Assembly: GCA_024401555.1 (NCBI GenBank)
Contig: JAKSKV010000006.1
Span: 1 to 64,000, forward strand
Source: Paludibacteraceae bacterium
GTDB taxonomy: Bacteria; Bacteroidota; Bacteroidia; Bacteroidales; Paludibacteraceae
DNA length: 64,000 bases
Direction: 5' to 3'
Positions within the stretch are counted from its first letter, which is position 1. Every line of letters begins with the position of its first letter. Position numbers and translations under genes: made by a program. Positions 3,644 through 48,834 of the stretch are shown here, piece after piece. The notes beneath the pieces are model-generated. The model was not told where the DNA came from. It searched no databases and saw only the letters and a program-made list of their open reading frames with translations.

Positions 3644-3665
3644 AGGGTTGTCCTAAGACAACCCT
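3644..3665 (-). terminator. Intrinsic terminator of the nine-gene minus operon
   Basis: A 9-bp stem (AGGGTTGTC / GACAACCCT) with a CTAA loop, followed on the minus strand by a run of T (the A8 tract at 3636-3644 on plus). It sits about 30 nt beyond the SRPBCC stop and closes the operon; it may also slow transcription coming from the EamA gene. Confidence 0.85.
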
Positions 3666-3691
3666 CTCATCCGTAATTTTCTATTCTTATT

Positions 3692-4117
3692 TTACATCTC
3701 TCCGTAAGGCAATGCAGCCAACATCTCAGCGGCCTTGTCCAAGCCTTGCTTCAATGGTTTCTCCACCATCATTTTGATCATCATATTGAGTTCTGCCTTG
3801 ATGGTCACCTTTATTCTGGTGTCATTCTCCCCAACGGATTTCAATTGGATCCATACATTGAACGGAATCGGTGATTGGTCGGAACCGAATTTTATGGTCT
3901 TGTTAGGCTCACGCTCAACGATTCGGATTGTCACAGGACCAAGGGGTGCATTGGCGATCTCGAATGTGCATGAGTCTCTGTCGAAACTCATGTTTTTCAC
4001 CTTGTCTTGGGGAATTCTATCCTTGATGCGCTCCAAGTTGGAGAGGTCGGAAAGAATGCAGAAAATCTTTTCGTCGCTATAAATCGACTTGGTGATGTTG
4101 CTCTCGATTGTCGTCAT
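3692..4117 (-). CDS. SRPBCC (START-like) domain protein
   Basis: 141 aa from ATG 4117, 23 nt after pyrE. The pattern of a short helix, an antiparallel sheet and a long C-terminal helix (ending MMVEKPLKQGLDKAAEMLAALPYGEM-type amphipathic helix) fits the SRPBCC helix-grip fold, which binds hydrophobic ligands. The starting segment ESNITKSIYSDEKIFCILSD is typical of polyketide-cyclase/dehydrase-like members. Next to pyrE in an operon; function unknown. An in-frame start 12 codons upstream would fall across the pyrE stop and looks less likely. Confidence 0.75.
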   Translation of the reverse strand: MTTIESNITKSIYSDEKIFCILSDLSNLERIKDRIPQDKVKNMSFDRDSCTFEIANAPLGPVTIRIVEREPNKTIKFGSDQSPIPFNVWIQLKSVGENDTRIKVTIKAELNMMIKMMVEKPLKQGLDKAAEMLAALPYGEM

Positions 4118-4140
4118 ACTCTCTTGTATTATTTGCTGTA

Positions 4141-4773
4141 TTATTTGCCCCAAGTCTCTGGGCTCTTACGCCACTCCTTCAATGTAGCCAACTCGCTCTC
4201 TCCGATGACCTTCTTCTCCAAAAGGTGTTGAAGAACTGCCTCGTAGTTGGAAAGGGTAGTCAACTCCACCTTTGCGGCAGCGAATTGATCAGCAGCCAAA
4301 GGGAATCCGTAGGTGAAGATGGCTACCATACCCATCACCTCAGCGCCAGCCTCACGAAGTGCGTTGACCGCCTTCAAGCTACTACCGCCGGTAGAGATCA
4401 AATCCTCTACCACCACTACCTTTTGTCCTGCCTTCAACTCGCCCTCGATCAAGTTACCCATACCGTGGTCCTTCGCTGCTGAACGTACATAGACGAATGG
4501 TTTGCCAAGCAAATCCGCTACAAGCGCGCCTTGAGCGATCGCTCCTGTCGCAACACCTGCCACAACGTCTGCGTCGTTGTACTTCTCACGGATAATATTT
4601 GCTAATTCCTCCTTGATGAGGGTACGAATCTCTGGATAAGCCAATGTCTTGCGGTTGTCGCAATAGATTGGAGATTTCCATCCTGATGCCCAAGTGAATG
4701 GGTTCGATGGTTGAAGCTTTACGGCTTGGATGCTGAGTAATTTTTCAGCTACTTGATTTTGAACATTGCTCAT
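4141..4773 (-). CDS. pyrE: Orotate phosphoribosyltransferase
   Basis: 210 aa, full length. Transfers phosphoribose from PRPP to orotate to make OMP in pyrimidine synthesis. The PRPP-binding signature VVVVEDLISTGGSSLKAV is intact (about residues 120-137) and the N-terminal FTWASGWKSPIYCDNR segment is the orotate-binding loop. Lies between a PfkB kinase and the SRPBCC gene in a tight minus-strand run. Confidence 0.96.
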   Translation of the reverse strand: MSNVQNQVAEKLLSIQAVKLQPSNPFTWASGWKSPIYCDNRKTLAYPEIRTLIKEELANIIREKYNDADVVAGVATGAIAQGALVADLLGKPFVYVRSAAKDHGMGNLIEGELKAGQKVVVVEDLISTGGSSLKAVNALREAGAEVMGMVAIFTYGFPLAADQFAAAKVELTTLSNYEAVLQHLLEKKVIGESELATLKEWRKSPETWGK

Positions 4774-7539: not shown

Positions 7540-8550
7540 CTATACGAAATTGGGTTGCACAAAAAATAGGATGGAACTCAGCGCGAATATGATGAGAAGA
7601 ATCTTGGATAGTCTGGACCATTCCAAGGTGAAATATTGTCCGATGATGAAGGAAACGAAGAAGATGCAAGTGGGCAGTATGATGTGCGCCTCACTTAAGT
7701 TCATCAGCATGATGACGATGGTTGTGAAAAAGCAACTGATCAGGAACACGACCTCCTCACGGCTTCGGATGTTTTGGCTGGAACGCGTGTGAAGAAAGTG
7801 TTGGAATGCGAAAATGAAAAGTAGGCAGATGATGCCCATATAGATTATATTGTCCAATCCGTTTGCCGTGATCGGCGTGCCGTCGAAATGGAACCACTCT
7901 CTCCAATAGTTGGTCCACGGTTCTATGTCGCCTATGCCGAGCGTGATCAGGATACAGTAGAAATAGGGAAGTACCCAACCTGTGAGAAACGCGAAGAACA
8001 ATTTGAGGTTCAGCGTGTTGCATCGGTATTGAAGGACGAAGAACGGAATCGCCAAAATGGCGGTATGCATGGCGAATAGGGTGGACAACGAGAGCACTAA
8101 TCCTGCATCGAAAGCCCTAAGGATAAATTTTTCGGGATTACCCTCGACCAGCTTGAAAGTGCTGTTCACGAAGAGTACGGTGCATAGGGTGGTGATCCAG
8201 GCCGTCGAGAAAACGTGTGGTCGCATCAAAAGGGAGACGATGACGATAAACACCAATCCGGGAAGAACCGTTCGGACACTGATGAAACCGAAAGTGTCGT
8301 TCAAACCGGTGATACAGAAGGCTGTGATGATGAGGCATAAAAGCGCGATGACACGCCCCCAAAGGCTATCAAAAGGGAGGTAGCCATTCAATAAATGAGC
8401 GAGTGGGGAGTCTCCCACAATGGTAGCTCCTCCACTCGCTGTAAAGTCTGGTAGGAAAATGTCGTACCACAATACAAGTGTGATAAGGAGGGAGATCAAG
8501 AAGGTTGATACTCCTGGCAGAATATTGTCTTTGTATTGTAGGTATTGCAT
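7540..8550 (-). CDS. DUF6427-type polytopic membrane protein
   Basis: 336 aa with about ten predicted transmembrane helices and few charged loops. It resembles the Bacteroidota DUF6427 family of unknown function, whose architecture recalls O-antigen polymerase or glycosyltransferase-C membrane enzymes. 8 nt downstream of purD and 2 nt upstream of the YqaA-like gene, so in the same transcript. No catalytic motif that I can name. Confidence 0.7.
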   Translation of the reverse strand: MQYLQYKDNILPGVSTFLISLLITLVLWYDIFLPDFTASGGATIVGDSPLAHLLNGYLPFDSLWGRVIALLCLIITAFCITGLNDTFGFISVRTVLPGLVFIVIVSLLMRPHVFSTAWITTLCTVLFVNSTFKLVEGNPEKFILRAFDAGLVLSLSTLFAMHTAILAIPFFVLQYRCNTLNLKLFFAFLTGWVLPYFYCILITLGIGDIEPWTNYWREWFHFDGTPITANGLDNIIYMGIICLLFIFAFQHFLHTRSSQNIRSREEVVFLISCFFTTIVIMLMNLSEAHIILPTCIFFVSFIIGQYFTLEWSRLSKILLIIFALSSILFFVQPNFV

Positions 8551-8558
8551 CTCCTATC

Positions 8559-9833
8559 TTATTTTAAGTCCTTTCCGATGTCGGAACGGAAATATTTCTT
8601 GTCAAATGCGATCTTTTGCGCATTCTTGAAAGAGATTGCCAAGGCATCCTCTTTGGTCTTTCCGTAAGAGCTGATAGACATCACACGGCCGCCGCTGGTG
8701 AGCAATTGGCCATCCTTCATGGTGGTTCCGGCGTGGAATACGATGCTATCCTCCACAGCGTCCAAACCAGTGATCACTTTACCCTTCTCGTATGCCTCAG
8801 GGTATCCGCCTGATACAAGCATGACGGTTACAGCGGCACGCTCGTCCTCCTCCAAGGTCTTGCTGGCAAGGTTGCCTGCAGCGACGCCTTCGAATAGATC
8901 AACGAGGTCGGATTTGATACGAAGCATCACAGCTTCAGTCTCTGGATCGCCCATACGGACGTTGTATTCGATCACCATAGGCTCGTTCTTCACGTTGATC
9001 AAACCAAGGAAAATAAAACCTTTGTAGGTGATGTTCTCTTTCTTCAATCCTTCAATGGTAGGGATGACGATTCTCTTCTCCACCTTCTCCATGAATACCT
9101 TATCGGCGAATGGAACTGGTGAAACGGCACCCATACCGCCTGTGTTGAGGCCTGTATCGCCTTCGCCGATTCTTTTGTAGTCTTTCGCTACCGGAAGGAT
9201 CTTGTAACCGCCATTTCCATCTGACAAAACGAATACGGAACATTCGATTCCGGAGAGGAACTCCTCGATGACTACTGTTGAGCTTGCCTCGCCGAACTTT
9301 CCGTCCAACATATTGCGCAACTCTTGCTTAGCCTCTGCCAAATCAGGGATGATCAATACGCCCTTGCCGGCAGCCAAACCGTCCGCCTTCAATACGTAAG
9401 GCGCCTCCAACTCCTCCAAGAATTTGCAACCCTCCTCAAGGGTTTGGGAGGTGAAGCTCTTGTAGCGAGCGGTTGGAATGTTGTGACGCATCATGAATGC
9501 CTTCGCGAAGTCTTTGCTACCCTCCAACTGTGCACCCTCTTTGGATGGACCGATGACAGGGATTTGCTTCAACTCAGGATCACCTGCGAAGAAATCGTAA
9601 ACACCCTTCACCAATGGGTCTTCGGGGCCTACAACCACCATGTTCACACCGTTGTTCAAAACGAATTGTTTGATGGCAGGGAAGTCTGTCGCCGCGATGT
9701 TCACGTTCTCGCCAACGGTAAGTGTTCCACCATTACCTGGTGCGATGAAAAGTTTCTCCACCTTTTTGCTTTGAGCGATCTTCCACGCCAATGCGTGCTC
9801 TCTACCGCCTGATCCTAACAATAGTACATTCAT
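8559..9833 (-). CDS. purD: Phosphoribosylamine-glycine ligase
   Basis: 424 aa, the usual size. ATP-grasp enzyme for the second step of purine synthesis: phosphoribosylamine plus glycine and ATP to GAR. Starts [18 protein letters not shown], has the [21 protein letters not shown]-binding segment and [10 protein letters not shown] near residue 215, and [14 protein letters not shown] as the Mg-binding motif. Its ATG overlaps the deacetylase stop by 4 nt (ATGA). Confidence 0.97.
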
Positions 9834-10465
9834 ATTCCGTCTTTTATGTTTTCTTCGGTTAATACTTCAAATTTATATCCTTCCGCCCTGAGGTACGCGA
9901 TCGCCCTGGGCAAAGCGTAACGGATATTCTTTTCCGCTTTCAATGAGTCGTGGAAGACGATGATCGAACCATTTCTGGTATATTTCTTGACGATATCCAT
10001 CACCTCTTCGCCGGATAGTTTTTGGTTGTAGTCCCTAGTGACCACGTCCCAGAAAACGATCTTGAATTTTCGGCGGAGCGTCACGAACTGCAAATATCTG
10101 AGAATGCCGTGTGGTGGTCTGAATAGTTTGCTATGTATCAATTCGTCCGCCTTGCCGACATTTTTGATGTAGTTCCTCGACCAGGTATATAATCCTTGGA
10201 GATGGTTGAAAGTGTGGTTGCCCACAAGGTGCCCCTCGTCCAATACCTGTTGGAATACATCGGGATGTTTTCTCACATTGTCGCCCACGCAAAAGAATGT
10301 GGCTTTGATGCCCTCTTTCCGCAGTAGCTCAAGGACAAACGGCGTCACTTCCGGAATGGGGCCGTCGTCAAAGGTGAGATATACGGTTTTCTCTTTGCGA
10401 GGTATTCGCCAAATTGTGCCAGGAAATAGTTTCCTGTACACAATCGGCAATTGTTCGATAAACAT
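9830..10465 (-). CDS. NodB-like polysaccharide deacetylase
   Basis: 211 aa carbohydrate esterase 4 / NodB-homology domain, no signal peptide. Motif 1 TFDDGP (catalytic base and metal Asp), motif 2 HTFNH (metal His pair) and motif 3 RPPHG are all present, so active metal-dependent deacetylation of an N-acetyl sugar is expected. Linked by a 1-nt gap to DUF2723 upstream and a 4-nt overlap to purD downstream, suggesting a role in cell-envelope glycan processing. Confidence 0.9.
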
Positions 10466-19954: not shown

Positions 19955-20018
19955 CCCCGCACATCTCGCTTTGCTCTGATGTACGGGGTTATGGATGTAG
20001 CGTCCTTCGGACGCAGGG
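19955..20018. repeat. Direct repeat B, copy 1 (64 bp), possible terminator
   Basis: 64 bp identical to 23710-23773. It holds two hairpins: CCCCGCACAT/ATGTACGGGG and GCGTCCTTCGGACGC. Read as minus-strand RNA the first stem is complete with one G-U pair, while on plus it has an A-C mismatch, so the minus strand is probably the functional one. It lies 14 nt beyond the DUF805 stop, where it could terminate the cassette transcript. Its GTCC-TTC-GGAC core is the reverse complement of the palindrome in repeat A. Confidence 0.85.
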
Positions 20019-20032
20019 GTGTGATCTATAAA

Positions 20033-21547
20033 TCAAAAGACGGATTTGGGCTCTTCTCCATATTCATTTTCTCCTTTAGTACCTGGCAATACAAGAGTCA
20101 AACCAAATACGATGAAGACAAGATAGGGAATCACTATCACAGCAATCAGTTTGGCTGAATAGCCAATATCATGAACACGACGAGCCATAGTTGGGAGTAT
20201 CGCTACATAAGTTAGTATGGCCACAATTTCTGCATTGACACCTAACAACAAGAAAAAAAACATTAGCAAGATGTTGGCCGCAATAAAAATCGCATATCTA
20301 CTTCTATTTTCACGACCACGATACGTGAACATATTCATAAAATCCGTCACAACCACTTTCATGATACAGTTGAAATAATACCGCCTTGATCCTTTCTCAA
20401 CTCCAACATTATCAAAAAGAGTAATTCTTGATCGTATCTTCTCTGTCTGTTTGATAAATTTTTTGCTCTTGAAATAATTATAATAGAGTCCGTTTGCAGT
20501 CAATACCAAGATCGCCAACGAGGAACAATATACAATAAGAATCAACCCAAATAAAACAAATATCCAACCCGGATTGTGTCGGGTCGTCTGCGTGCTTCCG
20601 TCTGAATACTGTGTGGTTTGGACAATAGTAGCAGTACCTGCGGCGAAAGCGATAACTCCAGTTCCACATGTGCAGACACTATGCACACACTCCCTAAAAT
20701 GGATGAATCTGCTAATGTTGAATCCATATTGGAAACAAGAAAGCAAATAAAGAGGAAGCAGGCATAGCAATAAAAAATACAAGATCTGATAATGCCGTGT
20801 TATTGAATTCTGAACATCAATGTCGGCTTGGAATTCGTCGATCATTTGTTCCTTTAGCTCCTTTGTGGAGAGGGCATTTCTACGGTCAAATTCTTTTAGA
20901 TTCTCCTCCAACTCCCGCTTTGCTTTAGCCACCTCTTTTTCGTCTTTGGAAAATTCAATGATACTCCTATTATCCCGTATCAACATACCTATGTCATGTA
21001 AATAGTAGAACTTGAAGATAGTAGGACTGGTAAAACGATCAAAATAATCACCTTTAATGTAGTAAGTCTCCTCTGTCGTATAGGTTGTATCCTTGTCGAT
21101 AGCCCATGTCTTAATGCCGGCTAACGCACTATCTAACTCCTTTGTTTCACCCTTAGGAAGAACCAATAATATGAAGGCAAGAAATACGGTAAAAGCAATC
21201 AACGCCACTTCAGAAAAACAGAAATGTCTTTCCTTGGACCAGTAAACTATAGACTTCATCTCCTTTAGTATGGAACCGAATCTTTCATCCTCCACCTTCA
21301 GGGATTGCTCGGCTAATGTCAAATGTCTTTCCATCTCTTCAGTTTCCGCCAGCGAGATCGGATAAAGCATATCCTTATACGGACCATCCCTAAGACATTC
21401 TCCAAGAGAATATGCTGGTGTACACATTGAGTTATAAAGATGGCACCACGCCTCCTGATTAGGATGATCAGGATTATTACAATTATCAGAAACTTCACTT
21501 ATGTCGAAGTTGCAACTTGCGGAAAATCGTCTCTCTCTTTCGTTCAT
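20033..21547 (-). CDS. Multi-pass membrane protein with C-terminal DUF805 domain
   Basis: 504 aa. The last 110 residues (FTYRGRENRSRYAIF...ARRVHDIGYS...LPGTKGENEYGEEP) match DUF805, a small polytopic membrane domain of unknown function. Before this are about four hydrophobic segments (near 112-132, 252-272, 300-315 and 335-357) and a charged helical stretch (205-245, likely coiled coil). The N-terminal 100 residues are soluble and Cys-rich (six Cys by residue 50) with no family I recognise. Last gene of a three-gene cassette bracketed by repeats A/B. Confidence 0.7.
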   Translation of the reverse strand: MNERERRFSASCNFDISEVSDNCNNPDHPNQEAWCHLYNSMCTPAYSLGECLRDGPYKDMLYPISLAETEEMERHLTLAEQSLKVEDERFGSILKEMKSIVYWSKERHFCFSEVALIAFTVFLAFILLVLPKGETKELDSALAGIKTWAIDKDTTYTTEETYYIKGDYFDRFTSPTIFKFYYLHDIGMLIRDNRSIIEFSKDEKEVAKAKRELEENLKEFDRRNALSTKELKEQMIDEFQADIDVQNSITRHYQILYFLLLCLLPLYLLSCFQYGFNISRFIHFRECVHSVCTCGTGVIAFAAGTATIVQTTQYSDGSTQTTRHNPGWIFVLFGLILIVYCSSLAILVLTANGLYYNYFKSKKFIKQTEKIRSRITLFDNVGVEKGSRRYYFNCIMKVVVTDFMNMFTYRGRENRSRYAIFIAANILLMFFFLLLGVNAEIVAILTYVAILPTMARRVHDIGYSAKLIAVIVIPYLVFIVFGLTLVLPGTKGENEYGEEPKSVF

Positions 21548-21564
21548 AGTTATATTAAATTTTA

Positions 21565-21594
21565 CATGTGTCCACTCTTATCAGCGGACACATG
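21565..21594 (-). promoter_or_regulatory. Intergenic hairpin ahead of the DUF805 gene
   Basis: A perfect 9-bp stem (CATGTGTCC / GGACACATG) with a 12-nt loop, in the 59-nt gap between the coiled-coil gene and the DUF805 gene. There is no T run on the minus strand, so it is more likely an RNA-processing or attenuation structure than an intrinsic terminator. Confidence 0.5.
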
Positions 21595-21606
21595 CAACAA
21601 TATCAT

Positions 21607-22206
21607 TTATTGAATTGCCTTTTGCAAAAGTTGGATTTTCAGACGCAACTCCTCGTCCACCTCATCCAAAGAGCTTTCAATATCCTTAATGGTTTCATCA
21701 TGCTTGGCAAGTTCTTTCTTTTGGAGTTTCTTGTCCATGGTCAAATCGTTCTCTGTCTTCGCACGGGCTTTTTTCTCCTTCTCCATTTTGTAAATCTTTT
21801 GAGCCAATGGCTGGGTAACAGATTTCGAACCTATACCCTTCACCGTCTCGCCAAACTGGATATTGTCGAATCGAAGAATCAAAAGGTTGTTTTTCAATGT
21901 GATCGTGCCAACGAATGTGATATAGTCAGAATAGGAAGTACGAATAATAGGATTGTAACGGGCTTTTGTCACCATATTGACATCAAATTCAAATCCCTCT
22001 CCTAAGGAGTCTTTTGTGACATTAGCTGTCCATTTTTGTTCCACCATCCATACTTTCGCATCACGGTAAACTTCAATCTGAGGGCCATCGAATTTAATCG
22101 TGTCCACTACAGAAGTGATGAATTTTTCATCAGCAGTAAAAATGTAATCCTTTGACCACAAATTTGTTGAAACCAACAACAATAAAAATAAACTTGTTTT
22201 TTTCAT
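21607..22206 (-). CDS. Secreted protein with C-terminal coiled coil, unknown function
   Basis: 199 aa with a signal peptide (MKKTSLFLLLLVSTNLWS). Residues 20-130 form an alternating beta-rich domain whose layout (Y+DAKVWM..., GFEFDVNM, YSDYITFVGTITLKNNLLILRFDNI) loosely recalls DUF4468 TBP-like domains common in Bacteroidota; this is a weak match. Residues 138-199 are Lys/Glu-rich and heptad-like, a likely coiled coil. 17 nt downstream of the lipoprotein gene, so co-transcribed. Confidence 0.6.
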   Translation of the reverse strand: MKKTSLFLLLLVSTNLWSKDYIFTADEKFITSVVDTIKFDGPQIEVYRDAKVWMVEQKWTANVTKDSLGEGFEFDVNMVTKARYNPIIRTSYSDYITFVGTITLKNNLLILRFDNIQFGETVKGIGSKSVTQPLAQKIYKMEKEKKARAKTENDLTMDKKLQKKELAKHDETIKDIESSLDEVDEELRLKIQLLQKAIQ

Positions 22207-22223
22207 ATTTTTGGATATTTATA

Positions 22224-22946
22224 TTAGTGTCGCAAAAAATTAAACTGATTTATGAATTGTTTCTGTCTCTTTGCCTTTTCCAATTCTTCGTTATAGTTAA
22301 TCCAACCAAATTGCATATTACTTTGTTCCTTAAACGTCGTTTCCCCATCATCTTTGATGTTTAATCTTCCCAGTGGAATAGTGATTTTCGTATATCGATA
22401 AAGGGTATCGGTAACAAAGACGCAGGAATCCCTAGCCTCATTACACTTGAGCGGTATGAAACATTCCCGAAGAAAAGTTTTCTCTTCGAAATCACTTATA
22501 GTACTGCTTTTAAAAACCACTTTGTCGAAATCAAAATTTCTCCTATGAAATTTATATTGTTTTTTACTTGTGATTTGTCCTTTCAGGTCGAATGTCTCGA
22601 ATATTATCTCATCCCCAATCGCATATTTGTTATTGTTAACCTCAATAGTAATATCCTTATTCTCCAAATCATAGGTTAGTGTCAGCTGCCTCTCCCAAAT
22701 TTCCCTTCCGCCAAGGTATGTCTCCAGATATCTTCTTTTACTCTCTCCGGACCACTGGTCCTTTTCCACTTTCCAATCAAGAATGTGTGCCTTCTTGATT
22801 ATAATACTATCCGTGTAAGACTCAAATGGTAAATCAGTGATTCGTGGGTCAGACTCTTTCTTCGCTTCTGACGAACAACTTGAAAAACCACCACAACACA
22901 ACGCCATAACAGGCAAAGCAACAAATAACAATTTCTTTAGTTTCAT
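22224..22946 (-). CDS. Lipoprotein of unknown function
   Basis: 240 aa from ATG 22946. Lipoprotein signal with candidate lipobox GGFSSC. The mature part is beta-rich and strongly charged with no recognised domain. An in-frame GTG five codons upstream overlaps the stop of an unassigned reading frame (GAGTGA), so 22961 is an alternative start. First clear gene of the cassette; the following genes for a secreted protein and a DUF805 membrane protein suggest an envelope-spanning set. Confidence 0.6.
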   Translation of the reverse strand: MKLKKLLFVALPVMALCCGGFSSCSSEAKKESDPRITDLPFESYTDSIIIKKAHILDWKVEKDQWSGESKRRYLETYLGGREIWERQLTLTYDLENKDITIEVNNNKYAIGDEIIFETFDLKGQITSKKQYKFHRRNFDFDKVVFKSSTISDFEEKTFLRECFIPLKCNEARDSCVFVTDTLYRYTKITIPLGRLNIKDDGETTFKEQSNMQFGWINYNEELEKAKRQKQFINQFNFLRH

Positions 22947-22961
22947 TGTATAAAATTTCAC

Positions 22962-23260
22962 TCCCTATAAGCCTCCCAATTCAGGAACATAATAAAAAAC
23001 GAAAAGGACGTGAGACTTGTTTCATCATACGTCCACGACCTAAAGGTATCGCCAAACACCTCACTCCAATGAACATAGAACATAGAAACACCCCACGCCC
23101 AGTTGGATATGCATAAAGGATTGACAATCCCCTTCACATACACAAAGGGAGTGAGGCATATTACTATTTCTAAGCCCTGAAGTAAAATTTGGCGAATTTT
23201 ATAGGTTCGGACTACAGAAAGAAATATGCCTTCTCGGTCTCCGAATTTCTCCCCGGAGAA
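22962..23260 (-). other. Leader or gene remnant upstream of the cassette
   Basis: About 300 nt between the putative promoter (23266-23294) and the lipoprotein gene. The minus-strand frame stays open and ends in TGA at 22958-22960, touching the GTG of the lipoprotein gene. Its residues near the end are hydrophobic and aromatic (for example NPLCISNWAWGVSMFYVHW), but it has no ATG before the final 40 codons. It may be a long leader, a truncated gene, or a short peptide of about 40 aa; I cannot decide. Confidence 0.25.
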
Positions 23261-37932: not shown

Positions 37933-38745
37933 CTAATCATATTTTTCGGTATTCAAAAGCGAAACGCTTCCTACACTGCGTTCAAATACAAATACTTTGT
38001 CGAAATTGCTTCTGTAGGTATGCGAAATGGCCTCGTTGGCGGTCAACGGATTGTAGGAGCTCGACATCAAGAAACTGTTTTGTATGATGATCAGCCACTG
38101 CTCGTCGCACGCTGGGTTGTACTTGCGTAGTTTGCACTCCTTGGCGATGAGACGCTGGGATACGCTTGCCACGGAGAGTGGTTTCACCTTGGTGGAGATG
38201 GCTGCGTACCAAAGCCCCTCGTACCATCTACCCGTCACGTTTTTGATGTTGATGCATTCGATTTTGTTGGGCAAGTTGTGGTATCCGTATTTGGAGGTGC
38301 GGTCGATCTTGTATTGGATGCCTGTCGCCTCCGGCAGGTTCTCCTCCACCAGTTTGACGATGGTCTCCGCGAAGTCTTGGCGGATGATGTTGCGCATATC
38401 ATCGTCGAGTGTCGAGACGGTGTCGTTCAGTTCGTTGGAGAAGTGGACATCGACCACCAGCTTGACATCGTGTTTGCGCTCGAAAATCGTTTGGGCGTCT
38501 TGCATGAGCGAGGAGAGGAAATCCTCGTGGGCGCGGAGGTTAAACTCCTTGTCCTCCCGTTCGTATTTCAGTTCGGTCAATTCAATGCCGTAGAGCCGGT
38601 TGTTGGCGTGCAATAGGAAATCAGGCGCCTCCGATTTCTCGATGTCGCCGATAGGGAAGTCCGGACAATAGGAACGGAAGGTCTGGATGATGGCCCATTC
38701 CCGCTTATCCTTCTTCTCTTGGTTATGACTGATCTCCGAACACAT
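37933..38745 (-). CDS. Uncharacterised protein, possible PD-(D/E)XK nuclease fold
   Basis: 270 aa from ATG 38745, cytoplasmic. APDFLLHANNRLYGIELTEL (about residues 47-66) resembles the PD...ExxEL strand-turn-strand of the restriction-endonuclease fold, but the expected Lys of ExK is not clear. The C-terminal half has NPACDEQWLIIIQNSFL, a strand-loop pattern also seen in predicted nucleases. No family name is justified. It borders the accessory region and is divergent from the VWA gene. Confidence 0.5.
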   Translation of the reverse strand: MCSEISHNQEKKDKREWAIIQTFRSYCPDFPIGDIEKSEAPDFLLHANNRLYGIELTELKYEREDKEFNLRAHEDFLSSLMQDAQTIFERKHDVKLVVDVHFSNELNDTVSTLDDDMRNIIRQDFAETIVKLVEENLPEATGIQYKIDRTSKYGYHNLPNKIECINIKNVTGRWYEGLWYAAISTKVKPLSVASVSQRLIAKECKLRKYNPACDEQWLIIIQNSFLMSSSYNPLTANEAISHTYRSNFDKVFVFERSVGSVSLLNTEKYD

Positions 38746-38793
38746 ATTCTCCTCATTTTGAAGGAGGGAAAATCCCTCTTTAAACAAATGTAC

Positions 38794-38801
38794 CAAAAGT
38801 A
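38794..38801 (-). promoter_or_regulatory. -7 box for the 37933-38745 gene
   Basis: TACTTTTG on the minus strand, matching TAnnTTTG, 48 nt upstream of ATG 38745. The -33 position is only T-rich. Confidence 0.45.
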
Positions 38802-38882
38802 GGCGAAATATCAAAATTTGCGAAAATAAATCCAGCTATTCTTGATTTGTCGGATTCTTGTTCTTGTCTTTTCTTCGGAAAA

Positions 38883-40220: not shown

Positions 40221-40267
40221 TTACCAGTTATGTTTGAGAATCAAAACCCACAAAAAGGAGAGGTGGT
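40221..40267. repeat. 47-bp direct repeat over the start of RhuM copy 1
   Basis: Identical to 41094-41140. It spans the translation start and first codons of both RhuM genes and shows that they arose by tandem duplication. Confidence 0.9.
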
Positions 40268-41090
40268 CATGTACCAACCCAATGAGACTATTCGTATCGA
40301 AGTTCGGATGGAGAATGAGACCGTATGGTTGACGCAGGCGCAGATGGCGGAGTTGTTTGGAACACAAAGACAAGCCATTACAAAGCATATAAAAAATATT
40401 TATGACACGAAAGAATTGGAGAAGCACTCAACATGTTCCATTTTGGAACTAGTTCAGAAAGAAGGTAATCGATTGGTGCATCGAAAAGTTGAATTGTATA
40501 ATTTAGATACCATTATCTCTGTCGGTTACAGGGTAAATACACAAAGAGGAATCGAATTTAGGAAGTGGGCTAGTCAAATATTGAAAGACCATTTGTTGCG
40601 TGGCTATTCTTTCAATCGGAGAATAGAGCAGTTGGAATCTAGGGTTTCCGCTACCGAATCCAAAATCGATTTCTTCGTCCGTACTTCGCTACCGCCTGTG
40701 GAGGGTGTCTTCTCCGATGGGCAGATTTTTGATGCCTACACCTTCGCCTGTGATTTGATCCGCTCTGCAAAGAGGCGTTTGGTGTTGATTGATAATTATG
40801 TGGATGATACGGTTCTGGAGATGTTCTCCAAACGCCAGGCTGGGGTGGATGCCACGATCTATACCGCCAAGATAACGTCTGCGCTTCATCTTGACGTGGC
40901 TCGCTACAATGCACAGCATCCTCCTCTCACGATTCAGTCGTGCCGTAACTTCCACGACCGTTTCCTCTTGGTTGACGACAAGGTCTATCACATTGGTGCT
41001 TCGCTAAAAGACCTAGGCAAAAGACTCTTCGCCTTCTCGTTGTTGGCGGATTTTGAGGCAGGAGAGATATTATCTAAAATTACAATCTAA
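40230..41090 (+). CDS. RhuM-family protein with C-terminal PLD-like domain, copy 1
   Basis: 286 aa. N-terminal RhuM domain (VRMENETVWLTQAQMAELFGTQRQAITKHIKNIY; IISVGYRVNTQRGIEFRKWA), originally named from a Salmonella virulence-island protein and common in mobile regions. It contains a helix-turn-helix-like segment. The C-terminal third is a phospholipase-D-like domain with a degenerate HKD: FHDRFLLVDDKVYHIGASLKDLG, and DNYVDDTVLEMFSKRQ as a first strand. The role is unknown; DNA binding is likely. Twelve nucleotides separate it from copy 2. Confidence 0.85.
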   Translation: MFENQNPQKGEVVMYQPNETIRIEVRMENETVWLTQAQMAELFGTQRQAITKHIKNIYDTKELEKHSTCSILELVQKEGNRLVHRKVELYNLDTIISVGYRVNTQRGIEFRKWASQILKDHLLRGYSFNRRIEQLESRVSATESKIDFFVRTSLPPVEGVFSDGQIFDAYTFACDLIRSAKRRLVLIDNYVDDTVLEMFSKRQAGVDATIYTAKITSALHLDVARYNAQHPPLTIQSCRNFHDRFLLVDDKVYHIGASLKDLGKRLFAFSLLADFEAGEILSKITI

Positions 41091-41093
41091 ATT

Positions 41094-41140
41094 TTACCAG
41101 TTATGTTTGAGAATCAAAACCCACAAAAAGGAGAGGTGGT
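41094..41140. repeat. 47-bp direct repeat over the start of RhuM copy 2
   Basis: Identical to 40221-40267, see copy 1. Confidence 0.9.
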
Positions 41141-41786
41141 ATTGTACCAACCCAATGAGACCATCCGCATAGAGGTTCGGATGGAGAATGAGACTGTATG
41201 GCTTACGCAGGCGCAGATGGCGGAGCTGTTTGATAAAAGTGTATCCGTTATATCTCGTCATATCAGCAATGTGTTCGAAGAAGGTGAACTAGAAGAAGAA
41301 AGCAATTTGCATTTTTTGCAAATTGCAAATTCAGATAAACCTGTGAAATATTTTTCTCTTGATGTTATTATTTCAGTAGGTTACAGAGTGAAATCACTCA
41401 AAGGTACTATGTTCCGAAAATGGGCTAACAAAGTTCTAAAGGAACACATTTTGCATACAAATACAATTGTCAAACGTTTTGAACAACTGGAGTCTCGTGT
41501 CAATGCTACAGAATCCAAGATCGACTTCTTCGTCCGCACCTCCCTTCCTCCCGTGGAGGGAGTATTCTCTGATGGTCAGATATTCGACGCCTATACCTTC
41601 GCCTGTGATCTGATACGGTCGCTCACGCTCCAAACTTGCCGCAATTTCCACGACCGCTTCCTCCTTGTTGACGATAAGGTTTACCACATCGGAGCCTCCC
41701 TCAAAGATCTGGGCAAGAAGCTCTTCGCCTTCTCGCTGTTGGAGGATTTCAGGGTGGAGGAGATATTAGCTAAAGTTGTCATATAA
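41103..41786 (+). CDS. RhuM-family protein, copy 2, with internal deletion in PLD domain
   Basis: 227 aa. Same start as copy 1 (the first 20 or so codons nearly identical) but the middle of the RhuM domain has diverged (FDKSVSVISRHISNVFEEGELEEES is the common RhuM sequence form). In the PLD-like domain about 53 residues are missing in frame at the DLIRS/LTLQTCRNF junction (near 41621), removing the first strand-helix repeat but keeping FHDRFLLVDDKVYHIGAS. The reading frame is intact, so it may still be made as a shorter protein. Confidence 0.82.
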   Translation: MFENQNPQKGEVVLYQPNETIRIEVRMENETVWLTQAQMAELFDKSVSVISRHISNVFEEGELEEESNLHFLQIANSDKPVKYFSLDVIISVGYRVKSLKGTMFRKWANKVLKEHILHTNTIVKRFEQLESRVNATESKIDFFVRTSLPPVEGVFSDGQIFDAYTFACDLIRSLTLQTCRNFHDRFLLVDDKVYHIGASLKDLGKKLFAFSLLEDFRVEEILAKVVI

Positions 41787-43246: not shown

Positions 43247-44881
43247 ATGGAATTTGAAAAACGCAACATAATCGAATTTTTGAATATTGCATTGCAGACG
43301 ACAATAGGAGAAGGTTGTGGTGATCAAATGTCTTCTGTTAAGAAATTACCTGATTCTTTTAACGGACTTAAAGTTCAAGCTAGCGTGGGAAAAGGAAGGG
43401 CTACTTCTATACCGTGGATTTCATTTTTAGGATATGGCCAACAGACTTCTAACGGTATATATCCAGTTTTACTTTACTATCGCAACCAAAATATATTAAT
43501 AGTTGCGTTTGGTGTAAGTGCGACAAATCCGCCTTCTGAATTATGGAATATTCAAGGGCTGAAAACATTGAATCAATATTTTGCTGAGCATAATATTACT
43601 TTGAAAGGAACTGAAAAGAATTATAATTCATCATTTGTTTATTCCGATTTCCAAGTCCCAGTTAAGAATGGGTCGCTTGAAGAAAAAATGTTTAAAATAG
43701 ACGAAGTGTTTGAATCCTTGTCAGATCTGTGCAAAAAATATAAGAAACGATTTGAAGTAATGGGAAATCTAGAACAAGATATGGTAGTATCTGAGGGAAA
43801 GAATTCATTTAATGTAAATACTGTGGTTGAGTGTGTCAATCAAACGGGACTCCTTTATGAGGACAGGTTAATTCAGCGGTATGTATATTCAATGATGACA
43901 AAGCCCTTTGTTATTCTAAGTGGTCTTGCTGGATCTGGAAAGACTCAGTTGGCATTGACATTCGCAAAGACTCTAGTAGAGGATGAAAAGAAACAATTGT
44001 GTGTTGTTTCTGTAGGTGCGGATTGGACTAATAGAGAGCCTCTATTAGGTTACCCTAATGCATTGAAGGAGGATTCGTATGTTAAACCTGAGAATGGTGT
44101 TTTGGATTTGTTGATTGAATGTAATAAAAAGGGAAATGAGTCAAAACCTTATTTCCTTATTCTTGATGAAATGAACCTTTCGTATGTGGAACGATACTTC
44201 GCAGATTTCCTTTCGGCAATGGAGAGCCATGAGAAAATACCCTTATGGAAAGTTGAGGATGATAATGTCCCGATGAATATTTCTTTGCCTAAGAATCTTT
44301 TTATAGTGGGAACTATTAATGTGGATGAAACAACTTATATGTTCTCGCCAAAAGTCTTGGATCGAGCAAGTGTTATTGAATTTAAGGTTAGTGAAGATGA
44401 TATGAATACTTTCTTGGAGAGTGCTCCTACTGTAAATATTCGTAAAGTGGCGGGCAGTGCATCGAAAATGTCGGCAGATTTTGTCCGAATAGCTTCCAAT
44501 ACAGTAGATATTAGTACAGAAGCAAATGGAGTCCTGAAGAAATTTTTTGCTCAGTTAAAGACTGTAAATGCGGAGTTTGGGTACAGAACAGCAACAGAAA
44601 TAGGTCGTTTTATTACTCTCTCAAAAGATGTTTTGGGCCTTGAAAATGCTATAGATGCTGCAATAGTACAGAAACTGTTACCTAAATTACATGGCTCTCG
44701 CAAAAAGATAGTTCCTGTACTTAATGAGTTATGGAAAATATGTGGTGCTGAAAATGGGTTAGATACACAGGAGTCTTCTAGTGTACCTCAAGGCATTAAA
44801 TATCCATTAACTGCAGATAAAGTATTGCGAATGTATAATTGTGCAATTGATAACGGTTTTACAAGTTTTGCTGAAGCGTAA
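43247..44881 (+). CDS. McrB-like AAA+ NTPase with MrcB N-terminal domain
   Basis: 544 aa. Residues 1-175 resemble the MrcB_N/DUF3578 domain, which in this family reads modified DNA or another ligand (IGEGCGDQMSSVKK; SIPWISFLG; GIYPVLLYYRNQN). The AAA+ core has Walker A GLAGSGKTQ (226-234), Walker B FLILDEMNLSYVERYF (Asp307-Glu308) and the McrB-type FIVGTINVDETTYMFSPKVLDRA with the arginine finger. McrB enzymes form hexamers that drive a nuclease partner; the next gene, 3 nt away, is that partner. The operon is visibly AT-richer than core genes, suggesting transfer. Confidence 0.88.
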   Translation: MEFEKRNIIEFLNIALQTTIGEGCGDQMSSVKKLPDSFNGLKVQASVGKGRATSIPWISFLGYGQQTSNGIYPVLLYYRNQNILIVAFGVSATNPPSELWNIQGLKTLNQYFAEHNITLKGTEKNYNSSFVYSDFQVPVKNGSLEEKMFKIDEVFESLSDLCKKYKKRFEVMGNLEQDMVVSEGKNSFNVNTVVECVNQTGLLYEDRLIQRYVYSMMTKPFVILSGLAGSGKTQLALTFAKTLVEDEKKQLCVVSVGADWTNREPLLGYPNALKEDSYVKPENGVLDLLIECNKKGNESKPYFLILDEMNLSYVERYFADFLSAMESHEKIPLWKVEDDNVPMNISLPKNLFIVGTINVDETTYMFSPKVLDRASVIEFKVSEDDMNTFLESAPTVNIRKVAGSASKMSADFVRIASNTVDISTEANGVLKKFFAQLKTVNAEFGYRTATEIGRFITLSKDVLGLENAIDAAIVQKLLPKLHGSRKKIVPVLNELWKICGAENGLDTQESSSVPQGIKYPLTADKVLRMYNCAIDNGFTSFAEA

Positions 44882-44884
44882 ATT

Positions 44885-47227
44885 ATGCAGAGAGAGCAAC
44901 TTGACATATTACTAACACCCAATCTAAGACTTTTAATTTATCCACATTCAAAAGAAGCAAAGTGTTTTGAAGAGGTTGATGCTGCAGACTATGGAGAGAG
45001 TCGTTGGCAGCTACAGGAGGGTCGTGAGTATGAGTATGAATTTCTTGACATAAATGGTGAAGAGGCAAAAGCTTTTTTCTATGATAAACCTGGTATAGTA
45101 ATACCTCGCAGAAAGAAGAGTGGAGGCTCAATTAAACCAGGCATATTTGTTGGTACTATGCCCTTCAAGGTATTGGATGAGGTAACAGGGCGTGATATTT
45201 CAGTTTCTTTAGAAATTCAAAGTGTTAAAACTGGATATCGAGATGATTATCGAAAGATGTTGTCTGATATTACTGAGTACTATACGGATCTTGTTATGAT
45301 GCAAGGTGCTCCAGTCAATCAAAAATTTGAAGTAGATAATGAGACTCCTCAACAGACGCTATACCAGAAGTTTGCATTTGTGAAGAGTATTGTGGACAGT
45401 GATACTTTTGAAGAAGCAATGCATAAGATTATGTTTAATCCAGTAAGGACTTGGACTGAAACAACGGTAAGTAGGCATATAGAGAATGTAAAGCGTCTGA
45501 ATAGAAGAGGTTTGCGGCAGATATCAAGTAAAACGGATAGAATTTCAAGTGGCGTTATAGATGGACTCAATTCATTGCCACGAACAGTAGAGGTTCAGTA
45601 TAAACGAGACTCAATAGATACGTCAGAAAATCAGTTTGTTAAGCATGTCTTAACTCAGTTCTATAGTTTTTGTACGGATATTGCTGCAAAAAAAAATGCG
45701 ACGGAACAATTAAAGAGAGAAGCGGATGTAGTTTGTAATATTTTGTTACGATATATTGGGTCATCATTCTTTAAAGATATTAGTAGAGCACAACATTTGA
45801 ATTTAAACAGTCCTGTCTTGCAACGAAAAGAAGGTTATCGAGAAGTTCTTCAAGGATGGCTGATTTTTGATCTTGCTGCAAAACTTAGTTGGAGTGGAGG
45901 AGACAATGTGTATGAGGCGGGAAAGAGAAATGTGGCTGCCTTGTACGAATATTGGTTGTTTTTTAAATTATTAGAAATAATAAGTAGAAAATTCCATGTT
46001 AAACCAGAGGATAAGAAGAGTCTTGTTTCATGTGATAAGGATCAGTTGAATCTAGAAATAAAACAGGGTAGAATGAAGATGATTAGTGCGGTGGATGAAA
46101 GCGATAGCCGTAGACTAAATGTCAGATTCTATTATAATCGTACATTTGGTCACAGAGAAGATATGCATAAAGCGGGATCATGGACAATGCCTATGCGTCC
46201 AGATTATACTTTATCTATCTGGCCTGGTGATATTACAGAGGAGACTGCGGAGCAAGAAGAGGTTATTGTTCATATTCATTTTGATGCGAAATATCGTGTT
46301 AATATAATCCAAATTGATGATGAAGATACTGATTTGGAGAATATTGAAGACGATGACAATCCACTTAATATAGAGTTTGCAGAAGAAAAGGAACGTGAAA
46401 ATTCTGGCGATTATGGTATAGGAATGTATAAACGTGCTGACATATTGAAAATGCATGCATATAAAGATGCAATACGTAGAACTAGTGGTGCTTATATCTT
46501 ATATCCAGGTACAGAACATAGCCGAAAAGAGGGATTTCATGAGATTATTCCTGGTCTAGGAGCATTTTGTATATCTCCTGGTAAGGAAAAAGATCAGGTG
46601 AATGAGTTGGCTAGGTTTCTTGAGGAGGTTAAACAACACATGCTAAATAGAGCTTCCCAGAGAGAGAAGATGGCGTATCAGTCGTATAATATTTACAAGG
46701 ATGAACCATCAGTTTCTTTACGGGAGAATTTGCCAGAATCTGTAGGCGAAAATCGAGACTTTTTACCTGATAAAACTTATGTGTTAATTGGATATTGTGC
46801 TTCGTACAACCAAGATTTTGTTTTGAAAAATATGATGTACAATGTTCGTACTGGCGATAAAAGAGGTGCGATAGATTTGAATATGCTGATGAAAGCTAGG
46901 TATGTACTTTTGTGGAATGAGACGGGCTGGCAATCTTTCCAAAAAATTAATAAAGGAAATTTTAAAGTTTATTCAGATAAAGACTTGGTCTCTAAAGGAT
47001 ATACTTCGTCAAAGATTAACAAAATTATGGAAATGGAAGCTTGTTCTCGAGATGAGGCTATAAAAAGAGTTTCTTTAGAAGACTACTACTGTACAATTGG
47101 TTTTAATCATCAAGGAATTGAAAGAGAATTCATAGAAAAAAAATGGAACACAAATCAATTTAAAAGAGGACCGCATTGTATTAGTCTTATTCAGTTAATG
47201 AAATATTTGAAAAAGGATGTTGATTAG
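44885..47227 (+). CDS. DUF2357 / PD-(D/E)XK nuclease partner of the McrB-like NTPase
   Basis: 780 aa. The N-terminal 300 residues fit DUF2357 (beta-rich then helical, SRHIENVKRLNRRGLRQISSKTDRI). The C-terminal part is a PDDEXK_7/DUF524-type nuclease: RPDYTLSIWPGD (Pro439-Asp440) and VHIHFDAKYRV (Asp467, Lys469) give the PD...DxK catalytic set, preceded by VAALYEYWLFFKLLEII, the usual helix. The last 150 residues hold an extra domain (YVLIGYCASYNQDF...) I do not recognise. This takes the place of McrC, so the pair is a non-canonical type IV-like restriction system. Confidence 0.85.
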   Translation: MQREQLDILLTPNLRLLIYPHSKEAKCFEEVDAADYGESRWQLQEGREYEYEFLDINGEEAKAFFYDKPGIVIPRRKKSGGSIKPGIFVGTMPFKVLDEVTGRDISVSLEIQSVKTGYRDDYRKMLSDITEYYTDLVMMQGAPVNQKFEVDNETPQQTLYQKFAFVKSIVDSDTFEEAMHKIMFNPVRTWTETTVSRHIENVKRLNRRGLRQISSKTDRISSGVIDGLNSLPRTVEVQYKRDSIDTSENQFVKHVLTQFYSFCTDIAAKKNATEQLKREADVVCNILLRYIGSSFFKDISRAQHLNLNSPVLQRKEGYREVLQGWLIFDLAAKLSWSGGDNVYEAGKRNVAALYEYWLFFKLLEIISRKFHVKPEDKKSLVSCDKDQLNLEIKQGRMKMISAVDESDSRRLNVRFYYNRTFGHREDMHKAGSWTMPMRPDYTLSIWPGDITEETAEQEEVIVHIHFDAKYRVNIIQIDDEDTDLENIEDDDNPLNIEFAEEKERENSGDYGIGMYKRADILKMHAYKDAIRRTSGAYILYPGTEHSRKEGFHEIIPGLGAFCISPGKEKDQVNELARFLEEVKQHMLNRASQREKMAYQSYNIYKDEPSVSLRENLPESVGENRDFLPDKTYVLIGYCASYNQDFVLKNMMYNVRTGDKRGAIDLNMLMKARYVLLWNETGWQSFQKINKGNFKVYSDKDLVSKGYTSSKINKIMEMEACSRDEAIKRVSLEDYYCTIGFNHQGIEREFIEKKWNTNQFKRGPHCISLIQLMKYLKKDVD

Positions 47228-47310: not shown

Positions 47311-47425
47311 CGCTTTTGCCCCTTCAGGGCGAACGTCTGCGCCCGAACCGTAGCCCAAGGCGTCGCTACGCTTGCCGTTGTGCTGTGAGCCTTAGGATTG
47401 CCCCTTCAGGGCGAAACGGTAGTCG
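47311..47425. repeat. REP-like element with two GCCCCTTCAGGGCGAA copies
   Basis: TTGCCCCTTCAGGGCGAA occurs at 47316-47333 and again at 47398-47415; between them lies CCGTAGCCCAAGGCGTCGCTACG-type palindromic sequence. This resembles a non-coding dispersed element scattered through many Bacteroidota genomes. It fills most of the 306-nt gap between the nuclease gene and the DinD-like gene; no gene is supported there. Confidence 0.65.
47405..47418. repeat. 14-bp inverted repeat, right arm
   Basis: TTCAGGGCGAAACG, reverse complement of 42512-42525. Confidence 0.55.
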
Positions 47426-47533: not shown

Positions 47534-48370
47534 ATGGAAGGGAAAAAACAAGAAATTCAGCTTTTTGAAGACAAGAAAGTTCGCTCAGTTTGGGATTCTG
47601 AAACGGAGCAGTGGTACTTTGCTGTAGTGGATGTGGTGGAGGTTCTCACTGATAGTGTGAATCCTACGGATTATCTAAAGAAAATGCGCAAGCGTGATCC
47701 GGAATTAGGAGACTACATAGGGACAAATTGTCCCCAGGTAGCAATGATGACGTCCTCTGGAAAGAATAGAAAAACTTTAGCTGCAACAACAGAGCAACTC
47801 TTTCGTCTCATCCAATCCATCCCATCCCCTAAAGCCGAGCCATTCAAGCAATGGATGGCGCAAGTGGCATCCCAGCGTTTGGACCAGATGCAAGATCCGG
47901 AATTGAGCATCGACCAAGCTATTGCAGACTACAAACGTCTTGGCTATAGCGACAAATGGATCAATAGCCGCGTCAAGGGCATTGAGGTCCGAAAGGAGTT
48001 GACAGACGAATGGGAACGTTCAGGTGTCACTGGCCAACAATATGCGAGCCTGACGGATATCATCACAAGGGAATGGAGTGGTATGACCACACGCCAATAT
48101 AAAGAACACAAAGGGCTTAAAAAGGAGAATCTTCGTGATAATATGACCAATGTGGAATTAGCATTGAATATGTTGGCGGAAGCTTCCACAACTGAGATAT
48201 CCAAGCAAAAGAATCCGAAAGGATTTATGCAAAGTGCCGAGGTGGCAAAAGAGGGTGGAAGCGTTGCCAAGGCAGCCCGAAAACAGTTGGAAAGCAAAAC
48301 AGGGAAGTCTGTTATATCTACGGATAAGGCTAGCGATTATTTGTTGCCTTCAGAAAACAAAGAAGATTAG
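47534..48370 (+). CDS. BRO-N domain, DinD-like protein
   Basis: 278 aa. Residues 10-110 form a BRO-N domain (IQLFEDKKVRSVWDSETEQWYFAVVDVVEVLTDS...), the DNA-binding module of phage antirepressors. The C-terminal half (EHKGLKKENLRDNMTNVELALNMLAEASTTEI...EGGSVAKAARKQLESKTGKSVIS) resembles the C terminus of E. coli DinD, an SOS-induced inhibitor of RecA. Seen often in mobile regions; here beside ssrA. No LexA-like operator was identified. Confidence 0.8.
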   Translation: MEGKKQEIQLFEDKKVRSVWDSETEQWYFAVVDVVEVLTDSVNPTDYLKKMRKRDPELGDYIGTNCPQVAMMTSSGKNRKTLAATTEQLFRLIQSIPSPKAEPFKQWMAQVASQRLDQMQDPELSIDQAIADYKRLGYSDKWINSRVKGIEVRKELTDEWERSGVTGQQYASLTDIITREWSGMTTRQYKEHKGLKKENLRDNMTNVELALNMLAEASTTEISKQKNPKGFMQSAEVAKEGGSVAKAARKQLESKTGKSVISTDKASDYLLPSENKED

Positions 48371-48397
48371 CGGGCGCTGAAGGAGGCAAAAAATTAA

Positions 48398-48433
48398 AAC
48401 CCCCAACCTATTGTCATCAATAGATTGGGGGTT
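48398..48433 (-). terminator. Terminator of ssrA
   Basis: AACCCCCAA-C-CTATTG, loop TCAT, CAATAG-A-TTGGGGGTT: 9 bp plus 6 bp around one mismatch. On the minus strand it is followed by TTTAATTTTTT. It starts 7 nt past the tmRNA 3' end and can also stop the convergent DinD-like transcript. Confidence 0.9.
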
Positions 48434-48439
48434 ATTTTG

Positions 48440-48834
48440 TGGAGATGCAGGGATTCGAACCCTGGTCCAAACGGGGAAATCATAAGCTTTCTACATGCTT
48501 ATTCCTGCCTTAGGTTTTCGTGCGACAGCAAGACCAGGACCACCAACCGTCGCCTTATCCTCTAAAATTTCATCTGGGCAGCGAGGCATACCCAAACTAT
48601 TCCCGATTTATCTGCTCCTCCGTATCCGACCGCTTCGGGACGATAGCATCGGGGAGAAGTCTTGTCCAGACACCCGTGTCCGGATTAAGCTTGAATCTAC
48701 TATACTTCGATTAAGCAGCAAGAGCAAAGTTATTCTCGCCAGTTAAATTTTTGGTCTCCAGATTATAGTGCTAGCCACCAGCGCACTGCATGCTTACCTA
48801 CCACCTCTGCCCGCTGTCAAAACCGGTCATCCCC
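48440..48834 (-). ncRNA. ssrA: Transfer-messenger RNA
   Basis: About 395 nt. The 5' end GGGGATGACC pairs with the 3' end ...GCATCTCC-A exactly as in other tmRNAs (G3-U pair included), and the TPsiC arm GGTTCGAATCC lies at 48450-48464. The tag reading frame (48711-48740, minus) is GGC-resume codon then GENNFALAA and TAA, very near tags of other Bacteroidota. CCA is not encoded in full. Rescues stalled ribosomes and marks the products for proteolysis; the ClpAP adaptor operon is 9 kb away. Its 3' end faces the accessory region. Confidence 0.96.

Follow-up and report, generated by a model that had tools for sequence, protein, structure and literature searches.

A predicted McrBC-type restriction system of the NxD branch from a Paludibacteraceae genome, with a conserved McrC tail that also occurs on DNA methyltransferases

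We analysed a stretch of 64,000 nucleotides from a Paludibacteraceae bacterium (positions 1–64,000 of the forward strand of contig JAKSKV010000006.1, assembly GCA_024401555.1; hereafter the window), focusing on two adjacent genes at 43247–47227. Judged from sequence comparisons, this pair probably belongs to the NxD branch of McrBC-type restriction systems, depends on modified cytosine (Type IV) and has an McrC with an added C-terminal domain, here called the tail; we put the probability of this reading at about 0.7. Both genes are intact open reading frames (ORFs) on the plus strand, separated by 3 nucleotides: an mcrB homologue (43247–44881, 544 amino acids), whose product was assigned a putative modified-cytosine reader and an AAA+ nucleoside triphosphatase (NTPase) by Pfam and PDB matches, and an mcrC homologue (44885–47227, 780 amino acids), assigned by Pfam. 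A preliminary description of this DNA had placed two genes in the same span with the same gap. It had also reported an MrcB/DUF3578 reader, an intact AAA+ core, a DUF2357 region and PD...DxK motif in the partner, and about 150 unrecognised C-terminal residues, all of which our searches bore out. Its statement that no McrC is present was wrong, because the domains of the partner are those of McrC.

The reader passed the Pfam threshold, scoring 26.1 bits against a gathering score of 25 for MrcB_N/DUF3578; E. coli McrB itself scores 28.8 bits with this model. In phmmer searches of PDB, residues 26–364 of the window McrB matched E. coli McrB (6ut6/7vsr) over both reader and NTPase (E = 1.2e-28), and the reader alone matched the 5-methylcytosine domain of E. 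coli McrB (3ssc, E = 4.5e-22). Aligned to 3ssc and to the profile columns, the ADAM/DUF3578 (MrcB_N) reader core (residues 26–114; 43322–43588, plus strand) has W57, Y72 and L76 in the pocket, where E. coli has W49, Y64 and L68, and K49 for E. coli Y41. The E. coli domain is known to accept 5-methyl-, 5-hydroxymethyl- or 4-methylcytosine. Two of its pocket residues, Y64 and L68, are in contact with the methyl group (PMC3874153). Among the relatives described below, an iterated profile found this reader in 40 of 82 N-termini (Pfam alone gave MrcB_N in 37/78, EVE in two and DUF4357 in one). With E. coli McrB added to these 40, W49 was kept in 40/41, Y64 in 39/41 (one Phe) and L68 in 39/41 (one Val), with one gap in each column, and Y117 was kept in 39/41. 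A reader with a 5-methylcytosine pocket is thus present in the window McrB, as in Type IV enzymes.

Together, reader and NTPase take up most of the 544 residues. The NTPase carries Walker A (GLAGSGKT, residues 226–233; 43922–43945), Walker B (FLILDEMN, residues 303–310; 44153–44176) and a signature loop (GTINVDE, residues 355–361; 44309–44329), all on the plus strand. This loop has the NxD form (N358-V-D360), short by one residue compared with the McrB NxxD, which in E. coli reads NTAD; three forms of the Nx(xx)D signature, namely NxD, NxxD and NxxxD, have been described (PMC11090510). NxD was present in all 84 NTPases that we looked at, the window's included, and also in NTPases adjoining DUF2357 proteins on Sinorhizobium, Thermococcus and Kurthia plasmids. 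The NxD branch was defined by Bell et al. 2024 (PMC11090510); according to that paper, none of the NxD GTPases had been characterised, and the methyltransferase-associated part of the branch is deferred to a later publication. For CoCoPALM, the name of the sister group, a literature search found only Bell et al. 2024 and its preprint relevant, and later work may exist.

The partner of the NTPase is, by its predicted domains, an McrC homologue. DUF2357 (residues 81–325; 45125–45859; PF09823, E = 1.2e-37) is followed by a PDDEXK_7 nuclease domain (residues 353–544; 45941–46516; PF04411, E = 2.3e-29), both on the plus strand, and these two families are the finger and nuclease domains of McrC, the finger being the part that contacts and stimulates McrB (PMC11090510). 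The nuclease motif is nearly invariant: P439 and D440 (46199–46204) and A468 and K469 were conserved in 84/84 proteins, the window's included, and D467 (with A468 and K469 at 46283–46291) in 83/84. By position only, the 80 or so residues ahead of DUF2357 (residues 1–80; 44885–45124, plus strand) stand where McrC of T. gammatolerans has its scaffold domain, and the order in the window McrC would then resemble the scaffold–finger–nuclease order of that protein (PMC7680126).

Relatives were collected by a scan of GTDB contigs, from which the best 80 of 285 were taken; with ten further regions this gave 90 loci, of which 88 (L016–L103) were used, L014 and L015 being left out as duplicates of L062 and L065. 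One locus (L018) holds only an McrC fragment. Another (L082) repeats L067 within a single metagenome-assembled genome and was kept out of the pair and methyltransferase counts. Judged by record titles, the best 80 relatives were mostly from Bacteroidota, with a few from Lachnospiraceae, Lentisphaeria, Oceanicaulis and Balneolaceae. When 295 genomes were sampled from the order, ten of them, including the host genome, gave an McrC match (E ≤ 1e-10). The preliminary description had made its reading depend on the pair being conserved together elsewhere, and mcrB and mcrC did stand together in 81 loci (gap of at most 60 nucleotides in 61, more than 300 in 20), against five McrC loci without an mcrB of the same family, two of which (L017, L044) lie at contig ends. 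Matches to the window NTPase often start near residue 188, and it therefore appears that readers are swapped while the NTPase and McrC stay. Where the gap exceeds 300 nucleotides, a same-strand ORF lies within it in 19 of the 20 loci (L036–L102; none was picked in L038), forming a passenger slot. Ten of these passengers were run against Pfam, giving RhuM in two (one with Bro-N), the DUF1016/YhcG nuclease in four (one of which has just its N-terminal part), SLFN_AlbA_2 with HATPase_c_4 in three, and no match in one.

The tail (residues 606–780; 46700–47224, plus strand) is conserved across the McrC family, with a mean column identity of 38% in an alignment of 83 rows. Of the 983 ORFs in the McrBC loci, 87 carried it, all of them McrC genes, and the single McrC without it (L069) is truncated by the contig end; it was kept with ADAM and with other readers alike. 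When 47 tails were aligned together (28 from the McrC set of 83 and 19 others), R655 and Y735 were invariant, with G661 in 43/47 and L676 in 44/47; the window tail has F where the consensus has W at 645, W for H at 677 and N for G at 692. By these comparisons the tail appears to be a conserved domain to which searches of Pfam, NCBIfam, PHROGs and PDB assigned no family and gave no match that convinced. Pfam gave no consistent family for the 83 tails (the widest matched 8/83, at best E = 0.06, and the lowest E of any single match was 0.0093), the tail profile found nothing usable in PDB (best E = 0.3, to a transcription regulator), and PHROGs had no match with three tails. NCBIfam gave no tail match for the window McrC and matched five tail-bearing methyltransferases in their catalytic parts alone. 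A literature search found no description of the tail, which has no name to search by. Profile comparison with known reader domains (hhalign) did not identify it as EVE, ASCH or RAMA (0.1–4.5%, with small comparison alignments of 4–6 rows); EVE against ASCH reached 45% with the same small sets.

The same domain occurs on other proteins. A profile of McrC tails only was run on 395 genomes of the phylum and matched 16. Twelve of these matches were open frames of 765–813 amino acids, which their length assigns to McrC (two were inspected, L110 and that of the window), and one was an McrC split across two frames (L122, L130). One (G424, E = 8.2e-4) was a short match in a membrane-like protein of 235 amino acids and is probably due to chance. 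The remaining two lay at the C-terminal ends of methyltransferases (E = 2.5e-21 and 3.1e-11). By Pfam, one is a C5 enzyme that has a second C5 enzyme and RE_HaeIII as neighbours, and the other is an N6_N4 enzyme adjoining another and two RE_MjaI genes. A second profile, built from 16 McrC tails and these two methyltransferase tails, was run on 393 genomes of the order and matched 35; 20 regions were inspected, mostly for matches outside McrC (L161–L180), and each held one tail protein. Nine were N6_N4-type methyltransferases (L168–L176; L169 by Pfam, the others by likeness), and that of L169 adjoins MethyltransfD12 and DpnII (Pfam). L169 and, by likeness, L172 and L174 are DpnII-type operons with the tail on the second methyltransferase, which we take to be DpnA-like. 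Three C5 methyltransferases had the tail at the C-terminus (L163, L177, L179), and a fourth, adjoining RE_HpaII, had it at the N-terminus with a weak match (L167, E = 1e-5). Four proteins of about 590–780 amino acids also carried it (L161, whose 5' end is open, L164, L165 and L166); L164, itself without a Pfam match, adjoins an AAA_5 NTPase and a C5 methyltransferase and is presumably LlaJI-like, judged by position. The others were a 507-residue protein with an N-terminal tail adjoining an Eco57I/ResIII protein (L162), a 415-residue protein whose first 280 residues belong to no assigned family (L178), and a stand-alone tail of 164 residues (L180).

Searches in the reverse direction gave the same result. 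Profiles of the nine N6_N4 tails, the three C5 tails and the four large-protein tails found 82, 87 and 74 of the 88 McrC, respectively, the window's being found by the first (E = 2.9e-6) and second (E = 2.5e-9) and not by the third; all 16 non-McrC tails combined found 87/88, the window's at E = 1.2e-12. None of these four profiles matched a shuffled McrC or any McrB below E = 1. The stretches from which they were built had themselves been found with the profile of McrC and methyltransferase tails. Compared profile to profile, McrC and non-McrC tails were matched at 99.8% (E = 1.3e-27). On mobile elements, a single-protein search of viral contigs found no relative of the window McrC; the family profile found two distant DUF2357 proteins (23–24%) there, without a tail match. 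Among plasmids there were ten distant DUF2357 relatives, of which the three inspected (L201–L203), all from other phyla, adjoin NxD NTPases and gave no tail match. A 7.6-kb record from faeces, filed as phage, encodes a DUF2357 protein with a tail (tail E = 9.1e-21).

For the methyltransferase count (METHYLTRANSFERASES), four ORFs on each side of a pair were scanned with profiles grown from four seed methyltransferases, which may miss some types, as L070 and L072 hold unscored genes with an xPPY motif. None was detected among the four ORFs (at least 90 amino acids) on each side of the window's pair, where other types could escape these profiles. With L031 and L082 dropped, a methyltransferase lay nearby in 10/39 ADAM loci (including the window, which has none) compared with 25/42 loci with other readers (Fisher p = 0.003), and among loci with at least 3 kb upstream in 10/29 compared with 23/33 (p = 0.010), relatedness being ignored in both tests. 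The host genome has two C5 methyltransferase genes away from the window, one within a run of small phage-like genes and one, on contig C100, with no neighbour recognised as a nuclease; it gave no N6_N4 match above the cut-off. The preliminary description, which had proposed a two-gene restriction-like system with an unclear target, is thus supported in part: the system stands, and the target is narrowed by a reader that keeps the 5-methylcytosine pocket and by a neighbourhood in which no methyltransferase was detected.

Several observations weigh against the Type IV reading. Within the reader, the Tyr41 position of E. coli, where substitution weakened binding (PMC3874153), is Lys49 in the window McrB; this point is softened by the variability of the column across the family readers (Gln in 17/41, Lys in 10/41). 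Three of the five McrC loci without a family mcrB (L029, L035, L061) have about 8 kb upstream of mcrC. The contig of L029 holds two genes in the nuclease position (2199–4496 and 8001–10334), of which the second is the McrC that has no mcrB to itself within 8 kb; we take the upstream pair, by likeness, to be LlaJI-like. The McrC family profile was not significantly similar to the single E. coli McrC sequence (hhalign), which belongs to another Pfam family (PF10117), and searches of PDB sequences with the window McrC alone and with the family profile matched no McrC. The McrC assignment therefore comes from Pfam and the literature, in which remote McrC finger domains are alike in structure at about 20% identity and sequence likeness is not defining (PMC7680126). 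Ten of the 39 ADAM loci have a methyltransferase, so that a strict rule by which an ADAM reader means no methyltransferase is ruled out and ADAM is not strictly Type IV. The association of reader with methyltransferase also weakened when relatives were collapsed at 80% McrC identity: taking the first member per cluster gave 4/16 ADAM compared with 14/22 (p = 0.025; five clusters mix readers), and scoring clusters by reader gave 7/20 compared with 17/23 for any member (p = 0.015) and 7/20 compared with 15/23 for the majority (p = 0.069). Because the host has two C5 methyltransferase genes, the reader would have to ignore the contexts that they modify. Finally, the tail is weakly basic (mean net charge +1.8, standard deviation 4.2; +3 in the window), so DNA binding by it is weakly supported.

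It is improbable, in our estimate, that the pair is instead the restriction half of a PcaI/LlaJI-like system, cutting unmodified sites while a protecting methyltransferase is encoded elsewhere in the genome. The McrBC-like nucleases PcaIAB and LlaJI do have cognate methyltransferases (PMC8989522, PMC12707154), the frequency of methyltransferases near relatives with other readers points in the same direction, and the C5 gene on C100 could be such a partner; the window reader, however, is of the ADAM type with its pocket residues, and its own neighbourhood yielded no methyltransferase. Least probable of all is that the locus is the remnant of a decaying island and not a working defence system, as the AT-rich stretch near a transfer-messenger RNA (tmRNA) gene and the partial duplicated RhuM copies described below might suggest, because both frames are intact and their motifs are kept. 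For the favoured Type IV system, the sequence comparisons show the domains, the motifs, the conservation of the pair, the likeness of the reader and the homology of the tail, and from these we infer the nucleotide used, the target base, the ring, the movement, the cleavage and the function of the tail. The McrB reader would flip out and inspect a cytosine, accepting a modified one, and the AAA+ part would form a ring that hydrolyses a nucleotide, probably GTP, and travels along DNA. The DUF2357 finger of McrC would sit inside the ring and stimulate hydrolysis, and its PD-DxK nuclease would cut when complexes meet. The tail would most likely hold the nuclease on nucleic acid, or gate it through the Arg/Tyr site, whichever reader is present.

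What the tail does is a separate matter, for which several proposals were weighed. A role as a sequence-specific recognition domain was considered unlikely, since the tail is kept across readers, occurs once per locus, sits on the catalytic subunit where this could be identified, and is found with the DpnII, HaeIII, HpaII and MjaI families (Pfam). These families recognise different sites. These observations fit a role common to the systems, which could be a grip on nucleic acid or a gate worked by a ligand or partner. Our tentative proposal, to which we give somewhat less than even odds, is that the tail is a control or DNA-engagement module of restriction systems, present once per system and moved among unrelated enzymes: McrC nucleases, methyltransferases of the N6/N4 and C5 types and large proteins of other AAA+ systems, besides the form that stands alone. 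Through the invariant Arg and Tyr it might sense one common thing, for example hemimodified DNA or some structure in DNA, a nucleotide, or a protein of phage or host, and so set when the enzyme acts, whatever its specificity. That it is a regulatory switch binding a protein or small molecule, and no DNA binder, is a real possibility that we would nonetheless bet against: its single occurrence per locus (87 McrC among the 983 ORFs, and one in each of the 20 further regions), its placement at either end of a protein (N-terminal in L167 and L162) or alone (L180), and its weakly basic charge all suit a switch, but no match suggests a ligand or partner, and most of the identifiable hosts act on DNA. 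It seems unlikely, if plausible, that the tail itself reads modified or hemimethylated bases and so, as a second reader, provides a check separate from McrB. Its presence on nucleases and methyltransferases of unrelated systems and its invariant Arg and Tyr would agree with this, and there are other defence proteins to which an ASCH/PUA or RAMA reader is fused (PMC12839542); the tail is, however, kept with ADAM and other readers, and the small-set profile comparisons gave no similarity to EVE, ASCH or RAMA. The tail appears to be the undescribed part of the system and is found on restriction and modification enzymes alike; its ligand, once found, would bear on the control of restriction systems of many specificities. 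The pair itself, compact and intact, would combine an McrBC of the NxD branch with the reader that is understood best, and the effect of the NxD loop on nucleotide hydrolysis could therefore be tested against a known ligand.

The locus differs from its surroundings in base composition, as had been noted from the sequence. The G+C content of 43247–47227 is 35.8%, against a mean of 47.3% (standard deviation 1.9) in segments of equal length outside 40–48 kb, and only 2 of 300 overlapping sliding segments of that length were lower. Another AT-rich stretch (20001–23000, 35–40% G+C) holds minus-strand ORFs of 504, 199 and 245 amino acids. RhuM and Bro-N genes lie on either flank of the pair. Upstream are two tandem RhuM-like genes (40230–41786), both matching PADLOC PDC-S05, which have 143 nucleotides in common at 92% and further blocks at 74–79%, the second gene being shorter. 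Downstream, a Bro-N protein (within 47534–48834; PADLOC PDC-S13, E = 1.1e-127, with weak DdrC similarity) adjoins the tmRNA gene (48437–48834, minus strand), which may be the border of an island around the pair. Shortly 3' of mcrC is an 18-nucleotide direct repeat, TTGCCCCTTCAGGGCGAA, at 47315–47333 and 47397–47415 (spacing 82), and the window holds no further near-copy. Farther upstream, a minus-strand ORF of 293 amino acids (37933–38814) without a Pfam or PADLOC match has APDFLL...GIELTELK in its N-terminal half, which by eye is PD-(D/E)XK nuclease-like. The host assembly comprises 3.52 Mb in 159 contigs.

Compared with known systems, the pair is like E. coli K-12 McrBC in its ADAM/DUF3578 reader with pocket residues, its AAA+ core and its adjoining PD-DxK nuclease subunit. 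It is unlike it in having NxD where E. coli has NxxD, and in its McrC of 780 amino acids with DUF2357, PDDEXK_7 and a tail, where E. coli has one of 348 amino acids in PF10117; Pfam scans of seven window proteins gave no Type I hsd match, unlike the E. coli K-12 setting. CoCoNuT systems frequently, if not universally, have an McrC whose nuclease is missing or inactivated, together with a HEPN or other nuclease, whereas the PD-DxK motif of the window McrC is intact and the same seven proteins gave no HEPN match. A long coiled coil fused to McrB is another mark of CoCoNuT systems; in the window McrB, the reader and the NTPase already occupy most of the length. RAMA, EVE and ASCH/PUA accessory readers are placed comparably on restriction and modification enzymes, and differ from the tail in profile by the small-set comparisons above. 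DpnII-, HaeIII-, HpaII- and MjaI-type systems have the tail on the methyltransferase, where it joins otherwise unrelated catalytic domains, and it was not found on their nucleases. PcaI of Pectobacterium and LlaJI share the pairing of an McrB-like with an McrC-like protein, but act on unmodified sites with cognate methyltransferases, none of which was detected in the window operon; the C-terminal extension of unknown function on PcaIB (PMC8989522) is a candidate for the same tail. The NxD-branch McrBC systems of Bell et al. 2024 (PMC11090510) likewise have NxD and a DUF2357–PD-DxK McrC with extra domains; many are methyltransferase-associated, unlike the window pair with its ADAM reader and no methyltransferase detected nearby, and the tail is not named for them in the parts of that paper compared. 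We place the system in the NxD branch of McrBC, where the ADAM reader, the NxD loop and the tail together set it apart.

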